From Mariprofundaceae bacterium (lineage in GTDB: Bacteria; Pseudomonadota; Zetaproteobacteria; Mariprofundales; Mariprofundaceae): DNA of 64,000 nt. The notes beneath the pieces are model-generated. The model saw only the letters and a list, made by a program, of their open reading frames with translations. It ran no database searches and was not told where the DNA came from. The stretch spans positions 1 through 64,000 of the forward strand of contig JAUZRG010000134.1 in NCBI GenBank assembly GCA_030950585.1, read 5' to 3'. Made by a program: the position numbers and the translations under genes. This document shows positions 29,094-43,256 of the stretch, in pieces (position 1 is the first letter of the stretch; every line of letters starts with the position of its first letter).

Positions 29094-31424
29094 ATGAAGA
29101 TTTTTATTAAAATAACGCTTATCTTCTTACTCCTTATGGTGTTTTTTGCATTTTGGACACGTTTAGAGACTCCTCTTTTTTCAAAGCCACTGTCATCCCT
29201 TTTATTGAGTCGAGAGGGTGAGCTATTGGGTGCAAAGATAGCCAGCGATGAGCAATGGCGTTTTCCACCACAAAAGAGTGTGCCTTTGAAGTTTCAGAAA
29301 GCGATTACTTGCTTTGAAGATAAACGTTTTTTTAGCCATAACGGTGTTGATCCTTTGGCTACTATGCGAGCTTTGTGGTTAAATCTTTCACAGGGGCATG
29401 TGGTGAGTGGGGGTAGTACCTTAAGCATGCAAGTCATTCGTTTGTCACGCCATAATCCAGCTCGAACTTATGTCGAAAAGTTGCATGAAATGTTGATGGC
29501 AATGCGTTTGGAATGGTCATATTCTAAGCAGGATATTTTGGCCTTGTATGCAAGCCATGCACCTTTTGGTGGTAATGTGGTCGGGTTAGAAACAGCGGCA
29601 TGGCGTTATTTTCATCGTGGGTCTGAGAAATTATCATGGGCGGAAAGTTGTTTGTTGGCAGTGTTGCCCAATAGCCCAGCCTTGATTCATCCTGGGAGAA
29701 ATCGTGATGTCTTAAAAAAGAAACGAGATCGTTTGTTAAAACAACTTTTGCAAGCTGGTGTACTCTCTGATTTAGATTATCAGTTGGCGATGCTGGAAGC
29801 TTTGCCTGAAAAACCACATGCAATGCCGCGAGCCGCACCTCATTTCTTTGAAACACTGATGAAACAAGATCCGAATAAGGCTTTTTTTAAAAGTACGTTG
29901 GATGTGAAGATGCAAGCCCAACTGACCTCATTGGTGAGGCATCATGCCAAGCAACTTGAATTGCAATCGATTGCCAATGTTGCAGCCATAGTGATTGATC
30001 ATCAGACGTTTGAAGTGATGGCTTATGCGGGCAATAATGATACCCACTATAGTCTTATTGAAGGTGCGGCACTCGATTTAATTCGACGACCACGCAGCAC
30101 AGGCAGTATTTTAAAACCATTGTTGTTTTCTATCATGTTGCAAGAAGGTGAATTATTACCCGATATGTTGGTGAAGGATGTGCCAACGCATTATGCGGGC
30201 TATAAACCTCAAAACTATGATCGCCAATACCGTGGTGCTGTACCTGCACGCGATGTCATTCGCTATTCATTGAATATTCCATCGGTCAGAATGCTTCACC
30301 GTTATGGCTTAGGTCGTTTTTATAATGTCTTGGAAAACATGGGTATGACCACGTTGCATCGTCCACCACAGCAGTATGGCTTATCGCTTATTTTGGGTGG
30401 TGCTGAAACCACACTTTGGGATATGGCAGGTATTTACGCTAACCTTGCTAAGATCACAGCCACAAATGCGGCAAAAGAAAGCATGACATATCAAAAACTA
30501 AAAGTGTTACAGCATCAAAATACGCAGACAGATCGGCATGTGGATGTGGGTTCAGCAGCGGCTTGGTTAACCCTCGATGCCTTGCTGGCTGTGAATCGCC
30601 CTGATGGCGAAGGTGACTGGAAACAGTTTGATAGTGCGCAAAAAATAGCTTGGAAAACAGGCACAAGTTATGGCTTGCGTGATGCGTGGGCGATTGGTAA
30701 TAGCTCTCGCTACACGGTGGCAGTGTGGGCGGGCAATGCCAGTGGTGAAGGTCGATCTGGTTTGGTGGGAGTCAAGGTGGCTGCCCCCATCATGTTTGAT
30801 GTTTTTAGTGCCCTAAAATCCGAAGCTTGGTTTGCACAACCTTTAGAGCACATGAAAGCGGTGCAAGTCTGTGTGGACGATGGTTATCTTGCTAATGATC
30901 AATGTGAATCACGCAGCCAATTGATTCCTACGGCCAGTCATTTTTCAGAACTAAGCCCTTATCACCATTGGCTACATTTGGATCAAAGTGGGCGTTGGCA
31001 AGTCAATGAACAATGTGAATCGGTTAGTCGTATGCAGCATGTTTCTTGGTTTAATTTACCGCCGTCGCAGGCTTTCTTTTATCGCCAACAGCATGCATCT
31101 TATCAAGACTTACCCCCTTTTCGCCAAGACTGTGTGGCAAGTACCCACGAAAGTTCACCATTGGAAATCGTTTACCCTAGTTTGGCGACAAAAATTTATA
31201 TTCCCATTGACCTTGATGGTAAACGCAGCAAAACCGTTTTTAAGGCTGTGCATCGTGACTCGGATGCATTGTTATATTGGCATTTAGATGGTCATTACCT
31301 TGCACAGACCCAAGGTTTTCATCAGCAAGCTCTTTTGATTGGTGCAGGCCAACACCGTTTAACCATTGTGGATGCCCAAGGTTATAGTCGATCTCGATCT
31401 TTTGAGGTTTTGAGTAAAGAGTAA
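29094..31424 (+). CDS. pbpC: Penicillin-binding protein 1C
   Basis: A bifunctional peptidoglycan glycosyltransferase/transpeptidase of the PBP1C class, anchored by one N-terminal helix. 776 aa. The transglycosylase domain shows FEDKRFFSHNGVDPLA and SGGSTLSMQVIRL. The transpeptidase has SxxK in STGSILKP, SLN, and KTGTSYG. The C-terminal BiPBP_C segment is present (ASHFSELSPYHHW through to IPIDLDG). PBP1C genes usually sit beside an alpha-2-macroglobulin gene; here that gene is at 20050-25521. ATG at 29094 has a poor ribosome site. Confidence 0.93.
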   Translation: MKIFIKITLIFLLLMVFFAFWTRLETPLFSKPLSSLLLSREGELLGAKIASDEQWRFPPQKSVPLKFQKAITCFEDKRFFSHNGVDPLATMRALWLNLSQGHVVSGGSTLSMQVIRLSRHNPARTYVEKLHEMLMAMRLEWSYSKQDILALYASHAPFGGNVVGLETAAWRYFHRGSEKLSWAESCLLAVLPNSPALIHPGRNRDVLKKKRDRLLKQLLQAGVLSDLDYQLAMLEALPEKPHAMPRAAPHFFETLMKQDPNKAFFKSTLDVKMQAQLTSLVRHHAKQLELQSIANVAAIVIDHQTFEVMAYAGNNDTHYSLIEGAALDLIRRPRSTGSILKPLLFSIMLQEGELLPDMLVKDVPTHYAGYKPQNYDRQYRGAVPARDVIRYSLNIPSVRMLHRYGLGRFYNVLENMGMTTLHRPPQQYGLSLILGGAETTLWDMAGIYANLAKITATNAAKESMTYQKLKVLQHQNTQTDRHVDVGSAAAWLTLDALLAVNRPDGEGDWKQFDSAQKIAWKTGTSYGLRDAWAIGNSSRYTVAVWAGNASGEGRSGLVGVKVAAPIMFDVFSALKSEAWFAQPLEHMKAVQVCVDDGYLANDQCESRSQLIPTASHFSELSPYHHWLHLDQSGRWQVNEQCESVSRMQHVSWFNLPPSQAFFYRQQHASYQDLPPFRQDCVASTHESSPLEIVYPSLATKIYIPIDLDGKRSKTVFKAVHRDSDALLYWHLDGHYLAQTQGFHQQALLIGAGQHRLTIVDAQGYSRSRSFEVLSKE

Positions 31425-32347: not shown

Positions 32348-33715
32348 TTAGCCTCGCCAAACGTCACCTTCACCTAAGTTACGAGCTAATAAGTCTAAAC
32401 TAGAGGCGGCCACAGGCATGGGAATTCTAACATGATGCCCGCTTCCGGGTGCTTCTTTCATGTCACGGCCATAGCGGGAATCGCACATACTTTGAATCAC
32501 AAAGGTGTGATTGCCTTTAGGGGAGATGAGTTCAACAGAATCTCCAACGGCAAACTTGTTTTTCACTTCAACTTCAGCCATGCCTGTTTCTGCATCGTAG
32601 CTGGTGATTTCTCCAACAAAGCGTTGTTGATTGAGTTGAGAGCTACCAAATTGATAATTTTGATGATCTTCACTGTGATGACGTTGATAAAAACCATCGG
32701 TGTAGCCACGGTTGGCCAAAGATTCTAATTTTCCTGATAAGGACCAGTCAAAAGGCTTGCCTTGTTGCGCATCTTCAATGGCTTGACGGTAAATTTGGGC
32801 GGTGCGAGCCACATAATAATGAGACTTGGTGCGACCTTCGATCTTAAGGGAGTCAATGCCCATTTTGACCAAGCGATCCACATGTTCAATGGCTCTTAAA
32901 TCTTTGGAGTTCATGATATAGGTGCCATGCTCATCTTCAAATACAGGCATTTCTTCACCGGGGCGTTGCTTCTCTTCCAGTAAATACATGCCATCAGCCA
33001 TTGGGTGACGTTTCATATCGCCACAGCTTGATAGTGCAGCATCGGGGGCTTCTTTGAGGGCATCCATGCTGAGAACATCACCACTGACATCTTCAGCACC
33101 TTTTTTCATGCCGTATTCCCAACGGCAAGCATTGGTGCAAGTGCCTTGGTTGGCATCACGGCGGTTAAAATAACCTGAAAGTAAACAACGGCCTGAGTAA
33201 GCAATGCACAATGCACCATGAACAAAAACTTCAAGCTCAATGTCTGGGCATAACTGACGAATTTCTGCAATGTCGTTTAAAGACAGTTCACGGGAAAGAA
33301 TAATGCGAGAAACACCCACAGACTGCCAAAATTTCACAGCTGCAAAGTTCATGGTGTTGGCTTGCACAGACAAATGAATGGGCATGTCTGGCCAGCGTTC
33401 ACGCACCATCATGATTAAACCAGGGTCAGCCATAATCAGTGCGTCAGGCTTCATCTCAATCACAGGTTCCATGTGTTTCATATAGGTGTGTACTTTGCGA
33501 TTATGTGGCAGTAAATTACTGGCAACAAAAAACTTTTTACCTTGATTGTGAGCTTCTTCAATGCCAAGACGAAGATTTTCTGTTAAGAAATCATTGTTGC
33601 GAACACGCAAGCTATAGCGGGGTTGGCCTGCATAAACGGCATCAGCACCATAGGCAAAGGCATAACGCATATTGCGAATGGTTCCTGCTGGGGCAAGTAG
33701 TTCAATGTTTTTCAT
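32348..33715 (-). CDS. trhP: U32 family tRNA hydroxylation protein
   Basis: A U32 'peptidase' family protein of the YegQ/TrhP type, which in E. coli is needed for 5-hydroxyuridine formation at tRNA position 34. 455 aa. Visible are ELLAPAGTIRNMRYAFAYGADAVYAG at the start (N-terminal barrel) and a Cys-rich cluster (LCIAYSGRCLLSGY, GTCTNACRW) that likely holds an Fe-S cluster. SLKIEGRTKSHYYVA is also typical. I chose ATG 33715; an upstream frame exists but lies inside ybiB. It overlaps the ybiB end by 14 bp and is last in the long minus-strand block. Confidence 0.9.
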   Translation of the reverse strand: MKNIELLAPAGTIRNMRYAFAYGADAVYAGQPRYSLRVRNNDFLTENLRLGIEEAHNQGKKFFVASNLLPHNRKVHTYMKHMEPVIEMKPDALIMADPGLIMMVRERWPDMPIHLSVQANTMNFAAVKFWQSVGVSRIILSRELSLNDIAEIRQLCPDIELEVFVHGALCIAYSGRCLLSGYFNRRDANQGTCTNACRWEYGMKKGAEDVSGDVLSMDALKEAPDAALSSCGDMKRHPMADGMYLLEEKQRPGEEMPVFEDEHGTYIMNSKDLRAIEHVDRLVKMGIDSLKIEGRTKSHYYVARTAQIYRQAIEDAQQGKPFDWSLSGKLESLANRGYTDGFYQRHHSEDHQNYQFGSSQLNQQRFVGEITSYDAETGMAEVEVKNKFAVGDSVELISPKGNHTFVIQSMCDSRYGRDMKEAPGSGHHVRIPMPVAASSLDLLARNLGEGDVWRG

Positions 33716-34682
33716 TTGTTCTCTCTTTTTCATCTTGTTGCCAGTCATGCGCAGACTCTTGTTGAAAAACAAGTTTAAAAGCTTGCTGCATGCGGTTTAA
33801 GACGATGTTATCTTTTTCTGTGCGTTGGCCATGCCATGTGGCTAGAAATTGTTGTGTTAATTGGCTTGGTTTGATGTGTTCACGTGGGTAAGGTTCAACA
33901 TCTGCTGAAGGGTAACGCCAGCGTGTGATCTTGCTACCTTGTTGGCTTAACAATAAGCGTTGTCGGCTTGCATAAAGCTCAGGTTCGCCTTCTGCACCCA
34001 TAAATAGCAAACTATTTTGTTGATCTAAAAGTTGATTGCTCTTTGCCATTAATGTGCCGTAAGGGTGATGAAAAAAACCATTGATTTGTGCTGTGCAGCG
34101 CAAAGGGTTTAAAAGTCTGGCCACGGTATTGGCACAACTTCGTACACCCAAGCGTTCGCGCAGTTGTAGCATTTGATACAGGGGTGGGCAAATATCTGTT
34201 AAATCCATGTAAACAATATTATTTTTAGCGAGAATGGGCTGAGCTTCTTGTAGAGATCCAGCTCGTTGCACACCTGCACGCGATAAAGCCTGCCATGCTG
34301 AAAGACGGCCTGCGATATCAGCGATACCATGAATGACAATGGGTATGCCTTGCTGGCTGGCTTCTAAGGCTGCGACCAAATGCAAAGGTGTGTCGCGACG
34401 TTTGCCCGCATAACAGGGCATATCAATGGCATGATGAAGTTGGTTAGCATTGAAATCATGGATAGCATGTTGAGACGCTTGCACAAAACCTGCGATTTCC
34501 GCAGGGCTTTCACCTTTGATGCGTTGCGCAATGAGAAATGCCCCCAGTTGTAAAGGGTCTGCACTGGGATGTAGCAAGTATTGATAAGCTTCAAAGGCCT
34601 GCGCTTGATTTAAGTCACGCTTACCATGCTGCCCCCTAGCCACGGTGGATAGATGTTGCGCTAGTTCGGAAGCGTTGATCAT
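33702..34682 (-). CDS. ybiB: YbiB/TrpD2-like glycosyltransferase-family protein
   Basis: A 326-aa protein of the TrpD2/YbiB group, related to anthranilate phosphoribosyltransferase but reported to bind nucleic acid rather than make tryptophan. Visible are the helical N-terminal domain (LGAFLIAQRIKGESPAEIAG) and, where TrpD has its glycine-rich GTGGD loop, the sequence YAGKRRDTP. The phosphoribosyl-diphosphate loop is therefore altered, as in YbiB. Its start overlaps the glmM stop (ATGA). Confidence 0.8.
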   Translation of the reverse strand: MINASELAQHLSTVARGQHGKRDLNQAQAFEAYQYLLHPSADPLQLGAFLIAQRIKGESPAEIAGFVQASQHAIHDFNANQLHHAIDMPCYAGKRRDTPLHLVAALEASQQGIPIVIHGIADIAGRLSAWQALSRAGVQRAGSLQEAQPILAKNNIVYMDLTDICPPLYQMLQLRERLGVRSCANTVARLLNPLRCTAQINGFFHHPYGTLMAKSNQLLDQQNSLLFMGAEGEPELYASRQRLLLSQQGSKITRWRYPSADVEPYPREHIKPSQLTQQFLATWHGQRTEKDNIVLNRMQQAFKLVFQQESAHDWQQDEKERTNEKH

Positions 34683-36019
34683 AAGCTTTCTTGAATGCGG
34701 TCAACGAGGACTTGACCGACCTCGAGCATGAGTAATTCTTGATTGGCTTCAACCATCACCCGCAATTTAGGTTCTGTGCCTGACATGCGCACATTTAAGC
34801 GTCCATTTTCACCCAGTGCTGTGGTGGCATCGGCAATGGCAGCGTTGATGTGCTCATTTTTTGTTATGTCAATGTGCGTAGGTAAGATGATATTCCATAG
34901 CTTCTGTGGAAAAAGTGGAATGTGTTTGACCATCGAAGATAAGGTTTTGTCTTGTTTCTTCATCGCAGATAAGACTTGCAAAGCGCATAAAAGGCCATCA
35001 CCCGTTGTGTTATAATCAAGCATGATGACATGACCTGATTGTTCACCACCAAGATTGCAATGATGTTGGCGCATGCCTTCTAACACATAACGATCACCCA
35101 CATTGGCACGGTGCATGGCAATTTTATGTTGTGCCAGGTATTTCTCCACACCCATATTACTCATAATGGTTGTGACGACGGCATCACCTTGTAGCTGACC
35201 TTCGGATTGCAAGAAAAGAGCCAACAAGGCAATGAGTTGATCACCATCGACAATTTGACCTTGGGCATCGCAAGCAATTAAACGATCTGCATCGCCATCA
35301 AGGGCAAAGCCAACATCAGCACCTGTTTGAAGTACTGTTGCACACATGTTTTGCGGTGCTGTTGAACCACAATTGGCATTGATATTATAACCATCAGGTT
35401 GATTGGCGAGGGTGATAACTTCACAGCCTAGCTCTTCAAGAATGCGCGGAGCCACATCATAAGCCGCACCATTGGCGCAATCGATGACCACTTTAAAACG
35501 ATTGAGGCGCAAGCCACGCGGTAAGGAAGCTTTACAAAATTCGATATAGCGGCCACGCGCATCATCAATGCGAAAGGCTTTACCAACGTCTAAAGCTACT
35601 GGAAGTTTTGGTAAGTTGTCTAAAGCCTCTTCAATCGCCAGCTCAACATCATCATCCAATTTAAAACCATCAGCAGCAAAAAATTTAATGCCATTATCGC
35701 CCGCTGGATTATGGGATGCGGATAGCACCACGCCAGCATCCGCGCGTAAACTACGTGTCAGGTAGGCCACAGCAGGGGTGGGAAGAGGGCCAACGAGCAT
35801 CACGTTCATACCTTGGGCGGTTAAGCCTGCACAGAGAGCGGATTCGATCATATAGCCTGATAAACGTGTATCTTTACCAATTAAGATATGCGGTTGATGA
35901 CCAAGGTGTTTGGTCAATACATAACCCGCAGCACGGCCTAGGCGCAGTGCAAATTCAGCGGTCATGGGGTCAATATTAACAGTGCCACGTACACCATCTG
36001 TACCAAAATATTTTCTCAA
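34679..36019 (-). CDS. glmM: Phosphoglucosamine mutase
   Basis: Converts glucosamine-6-phosphate to glucosamine-1-phosphate on the way to UDP-GlcNAc for peptidoglycan and LPS. 446 aa, typical. N-terminal KYFGTDGVRGTVN, phosphoserine loop SASHNPAGDNG with Ser at about residue 102, metal loop DGDADR, sugar-binding GGEQSGH and phosphate-binding RMSGTEPKLR. The start is TTG at 36019, with AAGGAG about 12 bases upstream. It overlaps the cdaR stop. In Firmicutes the same trio cdaA-cdaR-glmM occurs and GlmM binds CdaA. Confidence 0.97.
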   Translation of the reverse strand: MRKYFGTDGVRGTVNIDPMTAEFALRLGRAAGYVLTKHLGHQPHILIGKDTRLSGYMIESALCAGLTAQGMNVMLVGPLPTPAVAYLTRSLRADAGVVLSASHNPAGDNGIKFFAADGFKLDDDVELAIEEALDNLPKLPVALDVGKAFRIDDARGRYIEFCKASLPRGLRLNRFKVVIDCANGAAYDVAPRILEELGCEVITLANQPDGYNINANCGSTAPQNMCATVLQTGADVGFALDGDADRLIACDAQGQIVDGDQLIALLALFLQSEGQLQGDAVVTTIMSNMGVEKYLAQHKIAMHRANVGDRYVLEGMRQHHCNLGGEQSGHVIMLDYNTTGDGLLCALQVLSAMKKQDKTLSSMVKHIPLFPQKLWNIILPTHIDITKNEHINAAIADATTALGENGRLNVRMSGTEPKLRVMVEANQELLMLEVGQVLVDRIQESL

Positions 36020-36666
36020 AGCTCTGACTCTCCTTGTGTTTTGACTAACCAGCCATGCACCCGAAAGGTGGTATTCGGGTTCTGTAAACGAATGGATTTT
36101 CCTGCCAAACTTTCCATGTTGATATTTTTTTCAAAAGGCCCTGCTTCAGCAGCTAAGCGGATGCTGACCGTTTGAATATTGGAAATATTATCCACCCAAA
36201 TTTCAGGCCCATTCAAAGTCACCTTTGCAGGCTCGATTTTAAGATCTTGTACTGTAAAGTTATCAGGAATGATTAAATTTGCATGAATGGGGAACTCACG
36301 TTCTATCAGCATATCAACTTGTAATTCTAATTGGTCAGGTTGTGCTTTTTCCACATGTAAACCCATCGGAAGTTGAATATCTTTGAGCGCAATGCTACGC
36401 ATGAGAATACCTGGTTCTCGAATATCTGCGACATTTAAGGGAACGCTTATTTTATTGTTATCGAGAGCTTGAAGGCGACTTTGTAAGCCATTAATGGTTA
36501 AATGAACTTTTTCAGGAAAATCATTAATAATCACCATATTTTGCGGTAAGCCGAGCAGCTCTAACCGAGCATCTACCGTGATAGATCCCATACCTTGACC
36601 ATGTACTTGAATCCAAAGTAACACAGCAATAATGAGGGCGAGTATTTTTAAGCCAAAGTCAGACAT
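36016..36666 (-). CDS. cdaR: CdaR-like YbbR-domain regulator of CdaA
   Basis: A membrane-anchored regulator made of YbbR domains. 216 aa: one N-terminal helix (LKILALIIAVLLWIQVHG) followed by two YbbR-like beta domains (FPEKVHLTINGLQSRL and EREFPIHANLIIPDNF as starts). Firmicute CdaR proteins usually have four domains, so this is a short form. It lies three bases after the cdaA stop and overlaps glmM, which fixes the cdaA-cdaR-glmM order. Confidence 0.85.
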   Translation of the reverse strand: MSDFGLKILALIIAVLLWIQVHGQGMGSITVDARLELLGLPQNMVIINDFPEKVHLTINGLQSRLQALDNNKISVPLNVADIREPGILMRSIALKDIQLPMGLHVEKAQPDQLELQVDMLIEREFPIHANLIIPDNFTVQDLKIEPAKVTLNGPEIWVDNISNIQTVSIRLAAEAGPFEKNINMESLAGKSIRLQNPNTTFRVHGWLVKTQGESEL

Positions 36667-36669
36667 GGT

Positions 36670-37431
36670 TTAAGCTAAATGCTCGATAAGCAATGTTCGG
36701 AGCTGAGCTTGATCAATGGCTTCGGTGAGATGGCCTGCATAGGCAAGGCGAATGTCTTGGCATTCTTCCGAAACAATCAAGACGATCGCATCACTTTCTT
36801 CACTGACACCCACAGCAGCACGGTGTCTTGTGCCAAGGTTTCCCGCAATGTGATTGCCTTGGGTTAGCGGGAGCAAGACACGGGCGGCGACGATTGAATT
36901 TTTATGCACCACAATAGCACCATCATGCAAAGGGGTTTGAGGGCAAAAAAGCGTTTGTACCAAATCTGATTGCAAAGGAGATTTCATACGCAGTGCAGAT
37001 TCATATAAATGGCGAAGGCCTGTATCTCTTTCAATCACAATCAGCCCTCCCCAGCCACGGTGGACTAAGGCAAGCGCAGATTTGACCAATTCATCGGCAA
37101 TTTGAGTTTGATCCATTGAAGAAAAGGTTAGGGGGCTTAAGGCCACTTTCATAAGGCCACGCCGTAGCTCTTGCTGAAATAATACCACAATAATGACAAT
37201 GAACACGGAGAAAAAGTGACTAAAAACCCACTCTAAGGTGAAGAGTCCAAACACACGAGCCACTTCATAGAGTAGCAAGGTAAGCGTCAGGCCTGTGAGC
37301 ACTTGCACAGCACGTGTGCCTCGAATCAGACGAAGAACCGCATAAATGACAGCTGCGACTAATAAAACATCAATTAAGTCAAGCCAGCTGAGATGCCATT
37401 CTGCAATAAGTTCTTCAGTAAGCACGTGCAA
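36670..37431 (-). CDS. cdaA: Diadenylate cyclase CdaA
   Basis: Makes the second messenger c-di-AMP from two ATP. 253 aa: three N-terminal membrane helices (residues about 18-90), then the DAC domain with the two catalytic motifs DGAIVVHKNS (DGA at about 170) and GTRHRAAVG (RHR at about 202). The first codon is TTG at 37431; GTG two codons later is an alternative. It overlaps the end of folP by 17 bp. All catalytic residues are present, so it should be active. Confidence 0.93.
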   Translation of the reverse strand: MHVLTEELIAEWHLSWLDLIDVLLVAAVIYAVLRLIRGTRAVQVLTGLTLTLLLYEVARVFGLFTLEWVFSHFFSVFIVIIVVLFQQELRRGLMKVALSPLTFSSMDQTQIADELVKSALALVHRGWGGLIVIERDTGLRHLYESALRMKSPLQSDLVQTLFCPQTPLHDGAIVVHKNSIVAARVLLPLTQGNHIAGNLGTRHRAAVGVSEESDAIVLIVSEECQDIRLAYAGHLTEAIDQAQLRTLLIEHLA

Positions 37432-38236
37432 CTCGTAGCTGATAAGCTACTTCTAAGGCTCTTTTTTGAGTAGCTATATCATGAACACGCAACATATCCA
37501 CGCCTTGCCAAACCGCAATACTCAGAGCGGCAGCCGTTTCAATTTCACGCTCGATCAATTGTGAACCACTGATTTCAGCCAGAAAAGACTTGCGTGAGAT
37601 ACCCAATAAAACGGGTGCGATTTCTTTAAACTCAGCCAAGTGGGCTTGCAATAATAGATTGTCGTTGAGTCTTTTACCAAAGCCAATGCCAGGATCGATG
37701 CTTATTTTTTCTGCTTGCATACCTGCGGTAAGGCAACATTGCATGCGTTGTTGTAAATAAGTTTTGATGTCATCAAGCGCATGTTCATAACACGGTTGAT
37801 CTTGCATGCTTTGGGGTACACCTTGTTTGTGCATCAGACACACATCAACATTTGCCTCTACGGCCACTTGAATGGCACCGTCAGCACATAAGGCATTGAC
37901 ATCATTGATCATGCGTGCACCTGCAATGCAGGCTTGGCGCATCACTTCAGGTTTTGAGCTATCAATAGATACATATAAACCATCATCACTGAGTTGTTGT
38001 ATAACGGGGATAACGCGGTCTAATTCTTGTTGGACGGAAACACCATGAGAGCTAGGACGGGTGGATTCTCCACCGACATCAATGATGCTTGCACCTTGGC
38101 GTGCCATGTCTTGGCCATGTGTAATGGCTTTGTTTGTGTCGAGGTATTTTCCACCATCTGAAAAGGAATCAGGGGTGCAATTGAGCACCCCCATCAGCAG
38201 TGGTTTATCGCTATGCAGCCAAGGTGTTGCAAGCAT
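37415..38236 (-). CDS. folP: Dihydropteroate synthase
   Basis: Joins p-aminobenzoate to dihydropterin pyrophosphate in folate synthesis and is the sulfonamide target. 273 aa. Motifs: MGVLNCTPDSFSDGGKY, DVGGESTRPS, ISIDPGIGFGKRLNDNL and GISRKSFL. Its ATG shares one base with the ftsH stop (TAATG), the standard proteobacterial ftsH-folP coupling. Confidence 0.96.
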   Translation of the reverse strand: MLATPWLHSDKPLLMGVLNCTPDSFSDGGKYLDTNKAITHGQDMARQGASIIDVGGESTRPSSHGVSVQQELDRVIPVIQQLSDDGLYVSIDSSKPEVMRQACIAGARMINDVNALCADGAIQVAVEANVDVCLMHKQGVPQSMQDQPCYEHALDDIKTYLQQRMQCCLTAGMQAEKISIDPGIGFGKRLNDNLLLQAHLAEFKEIAPVLLGISRKSFLAEISGSQLIEREIETAAALSIAVWQGVDMLRVHDIATQKRALEVAYQLRVARAY

Positions 38237-40155
38237 TAAATTTCTTGGCCTGCCCCTTTGTCATCTATCTTGTTATCAGGCGTTTTCTTTTCATGTAAAG
38301 ATTCATCTTTGTTGGATGTTGACGGTGCATCATTAGCAGGAGGCTTAGAGATATGAATGATGATCTCTTCGCCTGCAATAGCAGCATCAATATCTTTACC
38401 TTCCAAGGTTTCATGTTCCAATAATGCATTGGTTAAGGCATGCAGTTGATCCATGTGATCAACTAAAATTTGACGTGCTCTTGCGTAGTTATCATCAACA
38501 TAACGACGTACTTCAGCGTCTACCTTTGCAGCCATGCCTTCTGAAAGGTGTTTTGAACTGCCTAGAGAACGACCAAGGAACACTTCGCCCTCTGGTTCTG
38601 CATAAACCATAGAACCAAGCGTATCGCTCATGCCCCAGTTGGTGACCATGCTACGTGCAATACTGGTGGCACGTTCAAAATCATTGGAGGCACCTGTGGT
38701 TTTTTGGTTTAAAACCAATTCCTCAGCAAGACGACCACCCATTAAAATAGCGATTTGATCTTCTAAATAATCACTATCGTGGTTGAAGCGATCTTCATTG
38801 GGCAGTTGCATGGTGACACCCAATGCTCGGCCACGCGGGATGATGCTTACTTTATGCACAGGGTCAGCATGTTTGAGGTTTTTAGCCACAAGGGTATGAC
38901 CAGCTTCGTGATAAGCTGTGCTTTTCTTTTGGTCTGCTGAAATAATCATTGAGCGACGTTCTGCACCCATAATGACTTTATCTTTGGCCATTTCAAAATC
39001 ATAGTTGGATACGTTATTGGCATTTCTACGGGCGGCACTTAGTGCGGCTTCATTGACTAAATTGGCTAATTCAGCACCACTAAAGCCGGGTGTTCCTTTG
39101 GCTAAGGTATCAACCACCACATCAGAATGAAGGGGGACTTTGCGCATATGCACACGTAGAATAGCAGCACGGCCACCCAAGTCAGGATGAGGAACGGTGA
39201 CTTGGCGATCAAAACGACCAGGGCGAGTTAAGGCTGGATCCAGTACATCAGGGCGGTTGGTGGCAGAAACTAAAATCACGCCTTCGTTGGTTTCAAAACC
39301 ATCCATTTCAACCAATAATTGGTTAAGTGTTTGCTCACGTTCATCGTTACCGCCGCCAATACCAGCACCACGGTGACGACCCATTGCATCAATTTCATCC
39401 ATGAAAATAATACAAGGTGCGCTTTTTTTCGCTTGTTCAAACATATCACGAACACGAGAAGCGCCCACGCCGACAAACATTTCTACAAAGTCTGAGCCTG
39501 AAATAGAGAAAAAAGGCACATCCGCTTCACCAGCAATGGCGCGTGCCAACAGTGTTTTACCTGTACCTGGAGGGCCTACGAGTAAAATCCCTTTGGGAAT
39601 ATTGCCACCCAAACGGGTATATTTAGAAGGGTCACGTAAAAATTCAATCACTTCTGTGACTTCTTGCTTGGCTTCATCGCAACCTGCAACATCTTCAAAG
39701 GTAATCTTTTTTGCATTTTCATTAAGTAACTTGGCTTTGCTTTTCCCAAACGCCATTGGGCCGCCTTTGCCGCCACCTTGCATTTGGCGCATGAAAAAGA
39801 TCCATACACCGATGAGTAATAACATGGGGAACCATGAAATGAAAAGAGGCCAAAACAAAGATTGGTCTTTTTCTTGTGCTTTCACATCCACACCGTTGCT
39901 AATGAGAATTTGAACTAAATCTGGGTCATCGGGTGCCAAAACATTATATTCAACTTGGCCAACATTTAATTTTTGATACATACCGTGAATTTCGTCGCCA
40001 CTAATGACAGCTGTATCCACGCGTGCGTCTTCAACTAAGCCTATAAACGAGGAATAAGACATTGGTTCTACTTGTCGATTTTGTGGTTGGAACATATTAA
40101 ATAGACTAATCATGGTTACACCGATGACGAGCCACAAGATCATATTTTTACCCAT
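38236..40155 (-). CDS. ftsH: ATP-dependent zinc metalloprotease FtsH
   Basis: Membrane AAA+ protease that degrades misfolded membrane proteins and regulatory substrates. 639 aa: two N-terminal helices with a small periplasmic domain between (about 8-105), Walker A GPPGTGKT at 194-201, Walker B IIFMDEID, the second region of homology [20 protein letters not shown], and the zinc site HEAGH at 416-420. A Lys/Asp-rich tail ends the protein. The 79-bp gap to tilS is AT-rich and could hold a promoter. Confidence 0.98.
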
Positions 40156-40234: not shown

Positions 40235-41200
40235 TCAACGAATCGCCGCGCTGCGAAGCTTGTCGATTACGCGCTGAAGATGCAAGTTATCCTCTTGATG
40301 TGATAAGCGGCTACCACATAAATCAATCCCACCTTTTCCGCCTTGCTTTAGCCACCGCTCCACAAATTCAAAATGTCGTCGGCCAGGTGTTTTCCCTTTG
40401 CCTAACAATATTTCAAACATGCGCCGTAACACATCAACACGTATCACCGCATCAAGCTGAACCCAAGCTTGCCAAGGTGTGCAAACGTGTGTGCTACTGG
40501 TTGTGATATGATGTTGGTTAGATTGCTTTGTAATATCATGGTTTAGGCGTTGCATTTGTTGACCCAAACGCGCAAATAGTTCTTTGCTTTGGCTGCTATG
40601 TTTTTCCATTTGAGGAAACAACTGATGCCGAATCTGATTGCGTAAGAAGCGTGTGTCGGTATTGCTGGCATCTTCTAACCACGGGATGTTGGCTTCTTTT
40701 AGTGCGCTCTCAAGCATTTGCTTTGAGAGACGCAGGCAAGGGCGAATGAGGGTGAGATCTTCCATCGTTCGACGATAAGGAATGCCTTGGCAGCCACGAC
40801 TACCAGAACCTTGCAATAAGCGCATGCACACGGTTTCAGCTTGATCATCAGCATGGTGAGCGGTGGCAAGAATATGAACTTGCTGTTCTTTGCTCCAGAT
40901 TGAAAATTGTTGGTAACGCAATTGGCGAGAGCGCGCTTCTTTATTGCTCTCAGAAATACCTGTTAAATGCGTTTTGAAAAAAGGAATGTGCCAATCTTTA
41001 GCCCATTCTGCTAACAACATGGCATTGTGAGTGGATTGTGGGCACCAGCCGTGGTCAATATGCCAAGCCACGACTTGGTGACCTTGCTGTTTTAAGGCTA
41101 AAAGCAGTGCGGTGGAGTCAAGACCCCCAGACCAAGCGACGGCTAAATACTTGGGGATTTGTTGATCTTGAAACCAGTGTGTATTTTTGATATTGAGCAT
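40235..41200 (-). CDS. tilS: tRNA(Ile)-lysidine synthase
   Basis: Adds lysine to C34 of the AUA-reading tRNA-Ile using ATP. 321 aa. The PP-loop SGGLDSTALLLAL lies near residue 25, with WHIDHGW and ATAHHADDQAETVCMRLLQG. It is shorter than E. coli TilS, ending soon after the first C-terminal domain, as in many bacteria. ATG at 41200 lies one base after the preceding gene's stop. tilS-ftsH is a common neighbour pair. Confidence 0.93.
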   Translation of the reverse strand: MLNIKNTHWFQDQQIPKYLAVAWSGGLDSTALLLALKQQGHQVVAWHIDHGWCPQSTHNAMLLAEWAKDWHIPFFKTHLTGISESNKEARSRQLRYQQFSIWSKEQQVHILATAHHADDQAETVCMRLLQGSGSRGCQGIPYRRTMEDLTLIRPCLRLSKQMLESALKEANIPWLEDASNTDTRFLRNQIRHQLFPQMEKHSSQSKELFARLGQQMQRLNHDITKQSNQHHITTSSTHVCTPWQAWVQLDAVIRVDVLRRMFEILLGKGKTPGRRHFEFVERWLKQGGKGGIDLCGSRLSHQEDNLHLQRVIDKLRSAAIR

Positions 41201-41201
41201 T

Positions 41202-43256
41202 TTATTTAGAAAAAGGAACCCAGCGTTGAATACCGCGTGATAAAATCAACTCTGAAATATCAGAATTAAAATCAAGCAACTCATAAAGTTCATGGGAAAC
41301 CCCTGCTAATAAAGGTTTACCGACTTTAACAAAAACAAAGGTTCGCGGGTCAATATCTACTTTTTCTTTCATGGTGACGATTTTCAACTCTGTTTCAGGT
41401 AGATGAACACCAGGCAATACTTCTTGAACTTGCTTTTTGCTTAAGTGATATTCATGGACATAAAGTTGATCCTCTAAGCTTGTGATTAATTCATATAAAA
41501 CGGTTGCTGTCAGGGCAATACCTGCATTGTATAAAACGAGTACTTTATTCTCAACTTTTTCAACACGTACTAAACCGAGAGCCTTTAATTCTAACTTTTT
41601 GTCACGCATTAGAATTAATTGACCGATGGATTCATTGCGTTGAATACCAGCCGAAGCTTGTGCCAAAGATAGGCTAAAGGTTAAACGACCTTGGCCAAAC
41701 TCTGGGTCTTTGTATTGGGTTGTTCGCCACTCGCCAATAATACAAATACACATAGAAACCGAGGGTGAACGGCGTGATCCAGCTGCGGCACGGTTCATGG
41801 CTTCATACCAACCTTGCATTTCTTGACGTAAGGAAATGCTGACCATGAGCAAGTCACGCGCAATACCGCGAATGAGGCAACCGGAAGCGGTGAATGAATC
41901 TAAAAAGATGTCTTTCACAAAAGGTTTAAGGATACGTAAAATACCGGGAACAAAAATTTGCTCAAGGAAGTTACTGATATTGGGTGCTTTTACGGCGTGT
42001 GCGCTGGATAAGTAATTACACCAATCAACTTTTAAGCAGGCTTGTTTGTGGGAAATCATTCTTCCACTGTGTAGGGGGTCTTCTCTATCCAGTTGTAGAA
42101 AGACCAACTTACCTTCATAAAAGCTTTTACGCAGTACCTCATCGACAAGACGACCACGTTTTTTGCCAACAATTTCATTTTTTCGACTTAACCAAAGCTT
42201 CTCGGATAAACGACGCATTTGTTCAATACGCAAATCTTCGGCTAAAATACGAAAGGCAACCAAGGTGCGATCATCTTTGCGCCACGGTGCTTCCATTGCA
42301 CCTTTGGATGATTTTCCCTCTATTTTAGCCAGCATCCAACGTGAGAAAATATGCTGTTCTTGTGCTTGTAGCACGGTTTTTAAGGCAACTGGTGCGCGTT
42401 GTGGTTTGGCAAGTAATTGATCCAATGCTCTTGCGTCATGCACCCATTGCATCAACATGCCTTGTTCGCTTAATTCGGCAAGTTCCCATAGGCATAAGCG
42501 TGCCCAACTGCGTTGAAGTAGGTGGTCACTCATGCGTATTTGGCCAAGTAAGCCCAACATGCCTGCTTCGTTTTTATTGCCTAATTTTTTTCGTAATTCC
42601 TGCATGCGTGGAATAAGCTCGGGCTCTAAACCATAAGATAGAATCACATGACGTGATTCCATGAGCATGACACCATCCAATTGACGATACATAAAAGCCA
42701 TTGGGGTGACAGGGATAATCATGGACTCATAGGTTGCAATACGCGTAACTTCTATTTCGCCTTGCACGGAGTTTTTAAGAAAGTTTTGCAATAACCATGA
42801 ATAAGCACCACCGATAACGCTGATCATCACATTCTCTGTCAGGTCAATGTTGGCTTCTTCAGGCTGTAAGTTGGAAATTAAACCCCTAATGATTTTCACC
42901 ATTAAGATATTTACAGCAGCGGTCCACGGAGCAACATCATGCCTGTCTTGTCGCCATGCTAGATTCCACGCTTGCATGAGGATGTTTTGAAAGGCCAGTC
43001 CACTTTCTTTTTGTGCGCACCAGTGGTGTAACATATGGGGGTGTAAGTGTGGGTAGTTGGTACGTAAGTGTTGATAAAGTGGGCGTGATTGGGGTGTTAA
43101 CTTAGGTAGCTGATAAGATGATATTTTTTCACCTTGAACGCTATAGCGCATCATATGCTCAAAGAGCAAACGAATACAGGTGCTCAAACCCTCTTCTATT
43201 TTAGATTCCAGTGCGTAAGGGATATATTCCTTGGTGTCTGCGGCGGTGATGCGCAT
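41202..43256 (-). CDS. 684-aa protein of unknown function
   Basis: I do not recognise the family. No signal peptide or membrane helix is evident, and it is rich in Leu, Arg and Glu, mostly helical up to residue about 430. The part LDSFTASGCLIRGIARDLLM, then ISLRQEMQ, then SVSMCICIIGEW, GQGRLTFSLSLAQASAG recalls the layout of class III nucleotide cyclases, but the metal-binding Asp of the usual GDG is replaced by ASG. That link is weak. It begins at ATG 43256 without a ribosome site, while the frame stays open a further 51 codons upstream with no ATG, GTG or TTG; the start is therefore uncertain. It heads the minus-strand block with tilS. Confidence 0.6.
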   Translation of the reverse strand: MRITAADTKEYIPYALESKIEEGLSTCIRLLFEHMMRYSVQGEKISSYQLPKLTPQSRPLYQHLRTNYPHLHPHMLHHWCAQKESGLAFQNILMQAWNLAWRQDRHDVAPWTAAVNILMVKIIRGLISNLQPEEANIDLTENVMISVIGGAYSWLLQNFLKNSVQGEIEVTRIATYESMIIPVTPMAFMYRQLDGVMLMESRHVILSYGLEPELIPRMQELRKKLGNKNEAGMLGLLGQIRMSDHLLQRSWARLCLWELAELSEQGMLMQWVHDARALDQLLAKPQRAPVALKTVLQAQEQHIFSRWMLAKIEGKSSKGAMEAPWRKDDRTLVAFRILAEDLRIEQMRRLSEKLWLSRKNEIVGKKRGRLVDEVLRKSFYEGKLVFLQLDREDPLHSGRMISHKQACLKVDWCNYLSSAHAVKAPNISNFLEQIFVPGILRILKPFVKDIFLDSFTASGCLIRGIARDLLMVSISLRQEMQGWYEAMNRAAAGSRRSPSVSMCICIIGEWRTTQYKDPEFGQGRLTFSLSLAQASAGIQRNESIGQLILMRDKKLELKALGLVRVEKVENKVLVLYNAGIALTATVLYELITSLEDQLYVHEYHLSKKQVQEVLPGVHLPETELKIVTMKEKVDIDPRTFVFVKVGKPLLAGVSHELYELLDFNSDISELILSRGIQRWVPFSK

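Follow-up and report, generated by a model that had tools for sequence, protein, structure and literature searches.

The cdaA-cdaR-glmM gene trio is best known from Firmicutes, and c-di-AMP is usually described as missing from model Proteobacteria. In Bacillus subtilis, Listeria monocytogenes and Staphylococcus aureus, the trio (cdaA/dacA, cdaR/ybbR and glmM) forms the operon with which the locus analyzed here shares its three common genes, their order, the DAC fold of the cyclase, and YbbR domains. Another close relative is the ftsH-folP-glmM operon of Escherichia coli. It resembles our locus in its flanking genes, its gene order, and residues Arg150 and Asp153 of GlmM, but carries neither cdaA nor cdaR; in strain K-12, nothing separates folP from glmM, in agreement with the first-pass annotation of this DNA, which had credited E. 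coli with ftsH-folP-glmM only. Our locus lies within a 64,000-nucleotide stretch (hereafter the window) of contig JAUZRG010000134.1 from a zetaproteobacterium of the family Mariprofundaceae, whose genome is 2.5 Mb in size and 99% complete. The locus is of a known and widespread kind, and it is new for Zetaproteobacteria as far as the literature searched shows, in which we found no study of c-di-AMP in this class. The most useful new points concern conservation across the class, co-occurrence with a DhhP-type enzyme, and the residue pattern of GlmM.

All genes of the string are on the minus strand and are tightly packed in the order tilS, ftsH, folP, cdaA, cdaR, glmM, followed by a TrpD2/YbiB-like gene. 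ftsH (38236..40155) encodes a membrane AAA protease of 639 aa (TIGR01241, 861 bits, above cut-off), and folP (37415..38236) encodes a dihydropteroate synthase of 273 aa (TIGR01496, 287 bits, above cut-off). The 3' end of folP overlaps by 17 bases the start of cdaA (36670..37431), which encodes a membrane diadenylate cyclase of 253 aa beginning at a TTG codon at 37431 or at a nearby codon. cdaR, also called ybbR (36016..36666, 216 aa), is followed by glmM (34679..36019), encoding a phosphoglucosamine mutase of 446 aa (TIGR01455, 590 bits, above cut-off). From ftsH down to the TrpD2/YbiB-like gene, the junctions measure only a few bases, with overlaps of 1 to 17 bases and a gap of 3 bases between cdaA and cdaR. 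The placement of cdaA and cdaR between folP and glmM, with neighbors overlapping or nearly so, was therefore correctly recognized in the first-pass annotation for all five genes.

The string extends beyond what had been described. Upstream, tilS (40235..41200; TIGR02432, 173 bits) is a member of the conserved gene string, and directly upstream of tilS is a gene for a 684-aa protein of unassigned family (41202..43256, minus strand), which had no Pfam or NCBIfam match. Fourteen class loci retain tilS-ftsH-folP-cdaA-cdaR-glmM as one block, and 13 of these have a homologue of this protein at the same position; it is kept in most zetaproteobacterial loci reaching that far. Downstream, the TrpD2/YbiB-like gene (33702..34682; NF006564, 235 bits, under the cut-off of 257) shares its first 4 bases with the end of glmM. 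Promoter-like matches in the operon region equaled the shuffled expectation, and we therefore drew no operon ends from them.

The catalytic core of CdaA is intact. The DGA motif (residues 170-172, codons at 36916..36924) and the RHR motif (residues 202-204, codons at 36820..36828) are both invariant across a 15-sequence alignment. The protein matches Pfam DAC with 116 bits and CdaA_N with 36 bits, and passes the NCBIfam equivalog TIGR00159 'diadenylate cyclase CdaA' with 193.6 bits against a cut-off of 188.8. Its structural model places N-terminal transmembrane helices at residues 16-35, 41-60, and 66-84, where model confidence is lower, and matches the catalytic domains of Firmicutes CdaA/DacA with a TM-score (target) of about 0.9, mostly within 1-2 angstrom. 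Among solved structures, 9g69 chain C gave the best sequence match, which covers almost the entire protein. The sequence and the alignment confirm the intact DGA and RHR motifs reported earlier. Among the loci compared, one genome (G002) has a 605-aa frame around CdaA, which we rejected as a fusion: its upstream part looks like a GC-rich open frame of low complexity, and no homologue matched it.

CdaR matches YbbR with 43 bits, in two separate stretches that correspond to domain 1 (36394..36549) and domain 2 (36121..36270). The AlphaFold model, with a mean pLDDT of 91, consists of one N-terminal helix, predicted to lie in the membrane, and two beta domains, and Foldseek matched the protein to the YbbR structures 4qdy, 3lyw, and 5hqh. 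Unlike Bacillus CdaR, the protein has two YbbR domains and about half the length. The first-pass annotation had counted this short two-domain form as a further peculiarity of the locus, which does not hold, as comparable or shorter frames occur elsewhere: CdaR open frames are 215-256 aa in Desulfobacterota and Nitrospirota. Those of Bdellovibrionota (L079, L084, and L123) are about 140 aa and possibly hold a single YbbR domain.

We compared the residues that join CdaA and GlmM in Bacilli. In B. subtilis, Arg126 of CdaA meets Asp151, Glu154, and Asp195 of GlmM (PMC8573169). The same study proposes that Arg150 in the E. coli enzyme may impede binding to CdaA (PMC8573169), and S. aureus DacA is not inhibited by GlmM from E. 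coli or Pseudomonas aeruginosa (PMC6368335). In our alignment, the positions of the Asp151/Glu154/Asp195 patch are occupied by Arg, Asp, and Glu in the host (Arg150 and Asp153 being the first two) and in 20 of 20 class rows, whereas the first of these positions is Asp in the Bacillaceae rows. The E. coli-type Arg/Asp/Glu pattern is also found in GlmM proteins of Desulfobacterota, Myxococcota, Bdellovibrionota, Nitrospirota, Binatota, and Rokubacteria (with one Lys), even though glmM lies beside cdaA there. On the CdaA side, the equivalent of Arg126 is R125 in the host, and the 20 class rows comprise 15 Arg, two Lys, and three other residues.

These residues make it doubtful that CdaA and GlmM meet here in the form known from Bacilli, the contact that the first-pass annotation had singled out for testing. 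If GlmM inhibited CdaA through the B. subtilis contact (R126 with D151, E154, and D195), c-di-AMP would be coupled directly to wall precursor supply. That cdaA and glmM stay in a common gene string throughout the class and in many phyla speaks for such coupling, as does the Arg at the R126 position in the host and most class rows; an Arg at the D151 position, as in the E. coli and P. aeruginosa enzymes, which leave S. aureus DacA uninhibited (PMC6368335), speaks against it, and we consider this form of control unlikely. Because published alanine variants of GlmM on their own barely changed the complex, the Arg is a hint and not proof. The Bacilli-type contact is probably not conserved in its known form, and another mode of contact is possible. 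The GlmM residue pattern accordingly predicts that the known control of CdaA by GlmM does not extend unchanged beyond Bacillota.

To place the locus in its class and phylum, we searched 399 Pseudomonadota genomes, including all 78 class genomes (from one order, 39 of them good), which left 321 outside the class. The DAC domain was found in 71 of the 78 class genomes and 38 of the 39 good ones, the misses being mostly incomplete assemblies. Outside the class, a true DAC was present in only two of the 321 genomes, G078, the only genome of its class in the sample, and G234. This scarcity among the sampled Pseudomonadota bears out the earlier remark that most model proteobacteria lack c-di-AMP. 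YbbR follows DAC in this sample, being limited to the class and G078. The 0.9-Mb, 100% complete genome of G234 carries a divergent CdaA that is not encoded in a glmM operon (L060, G234:C1:240500-253500), perhaps an independent gain, together with a DHH-DHHA1 protein. Nine more Pseudomonadota (G085, G105, G144, G147, G159, G162, G168, G207, and G210) gave weak partial DAC matches of 20-29 bits in frames of 330-700 aa, which are perhaps DAC-like sensor domains.

We then compared gene order. Inside the class, the run ftsH-folP-cdaA-cdaR-glmM was found in 14 of 18 loci, and G078 has it as well. In a set of 80 named loci whose CdaA is close to that of the window, the run was found in 6/10 loci of Desulfobacterota (Thermodesulfobacteriota), 4/6 of Myxococcota, 2/2 of Nitrospirota, 1/1 of Binatota, and 1/1 of Rokubacteria; since this set was picked for its similarity and includes some short contigs, these numbers should not be taken as frequencies. 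The complete order beginning with tilS also occurs in Desulfobacterota, Myxococcota, Nitrospirota, Binatota, and Rokubacteria. By contrast, tilS-ftsH-folP does not precede cdaA in the Firmicutes operon, and folP adjoined cdaA in none of the 29 sampled Bacillota loci. Close counterparts of our locus are those of Desulfobacterota, Myxococcota, Nitrospirota, Binatota, and others, with the same gene order, a place in the same larger CdaA clade, and the GlmM Arg signature; they differ in belonging to other phyla and in their variable CdaR length.

Trees of the proteins point the same way. In quick trees built without bootstrap, zetaproteobacterial CdaA formed one clade (SH-aLRT 100). It fell inside a larger clade (98) that also holds Desulfobacterota, Myxococcota, Bdellovibrionota, Nitrospirota, and others and is separate from Bacillota. 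The GlmM tree was similar and placed E. coli GlmM next to its zetaproteobacterial counterparts with weak support (80). We hold with good confidence that, taken as a whole, these data are best explained by a c-di-AMP synthesis operon of vertical descent in Zetaproteobacteria. Because many Gram-negative phyla share the gene order, we favor an old inheritance that was lost in the branch of E. coli over an import from Firmicutes. The simplest reading is that the operon was inherited vertically and that other Pseudomonadota lost cdaA-cdaR. On this reading, in which the ancestral state is inferred, E. coli ftsH-folP-glmM would be what that loss left of the same operon.

One alternative to vertical descent is that another Gram-negative phylum donated the operon, or the cdaA-cdaR pair, to the ancestor of Zetaproteobacteria once the ancestor of Pseudomonadota had lost it. 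Such a transfer would account for the restriction of true DAC among sampled Pseudomonadota to Zetaproteobacteria, G078, and the small genome of G234, and in the CdaA tree the precise sister group of the zetaproteobacterial sequences is ambiguous. Against it, G078 has the same gene order, and glmM at least looks vertical because E. coli GlmM adjoins its zetaproteobacterial counterpart, albeit with weak support; we judge the transfer improbable. Far less credible still is the acquisition of cdaA-cdaR from Firmicutes into an existing ftsH-folP-glmM operon. It draws on the renown of the trio in Firmicutes and on the absence of the pair from nearly all other Pseudomonadota, and is strongly disfavored and in effect rejected by the grouping of CdaA with Desulfobacterota, Myxococcota, and others, by the six-gene order in several of those Gram-negative phyla, and by the lack of folP next to cdaA in the sampled Bacillota loci. 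The picture of a Firmicutes trio set in a proteobacterial operon, as first drawn for this locus, accordingly gives way to descent among Gram-negative phyla.

Considering the intact enzyme and the presence of DAC in nearly all good class genomes, the host very probably makes c-di-AMP. A catalytically dead CdaA, or one that yields another product, is highly improbable given the invariant motifs, the equivalog score, and the match to the fold of active enzymes. A chance occurrence or pseudogene is ruled out by class-wide conservation together with the intact motifs.

The first-pass annotation had looked to GdpP or PgpH for degradation of the messenger. Unlike in Firmicutes, no GdpP-type DHH protein was found in the host genome and no PgpH (7TM-HD) above cut-off in the 78 class genomes, which removes both as candidates. 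The host has only two DHH proteins, RecJ and a stand-alone 324-aa DHH-DHHA1 protein that is encoded between infB and truB and carries the catalytic motifs DGD, DHH, and GGGGH. This protein is present in 39 of the 39 good class genomes, and among the 321 Pseudomonadota outside the class it was confined to G078 and G234, which are also the two genomes with a true DAC. The probability of this coincidence by chance is about 2e-5, a value that assumes independent genomes and rests on two of them. The co-occurrence ties CdaA to a probable degradation partner. The nearest solved relatives of the protein are the DhhP/NrnA-type phosphodiesterases TmPDE (TM1595) of Thermotoga maritima and CnpB (Rv2837c) of Mycobacterium tuberculosis. 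As Orn is present in the host genome, the DHH-DHHA1 protein need not be a general short-RNA nuclease. Some NrnA-like proteins cut c-di-AMP and others do not (PMC9757072), and the substrate may therefore be c-di-AMP or pApA.

We also looked for receptors. A c-di-AMP riboswitch (RF00379) was found in none of the 78 class genomes and not in the window, which excludes it as the receptor. RCK_C domains occur in TrkA and in an Na/H-type antiporter, both of which are candidate receptors only; because the family is also present in bacteria that lack DAC, such as the E. coli control, these domains have no diagnostic value on sequence alone.

The genes, motifs, predicted folds, gene order, conservation, trees, and co-occurrence described here are best accounted for by the following scheme. 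CdaA, anchored in the inner membrane, would join two ATP molecules to form c-di-AMP. CdaR would be a periplasmic protein of two YbbR domains held by its single helix, probably sensing or regulating CdaA from outside, the direction of control being presumed. GlmM is probably co-expressed, which would tie the operon to UDP-GlcNAc and wall supply, and c-di-AMP or its product pApA would probably be removed by the single DhhP/NrnA-type enzyme as the presumptive partner. The role in osmotic or wall control suggested in the first-pass annotation is hypothetical. More tentatively, with slightly less than even confidence, we propose that the Gram-negative circuit differs from that of Firmicutes: GlmM would not bind CdaA through the Asp151 patch, one DhhP-type enzyme would serve turnover, and the familiar Proteobacteria would have lost cdaA-cdaR along with the phosphodiesterase, so that ftsH-folP-glmM would be the remnant. 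Confirmation of c-di-AMP in Zetaproteobacteria would mean that a whole class of Pseudomonadota uses the messenger and could be compared with relatives that have lost it; it would also explain why the well-known E. coli operon has the genes it has. Near the operon, on the opposite strand (29094-31424, plus), lies a gene predicted to encode a penicillin-binding protein 1C-like product.
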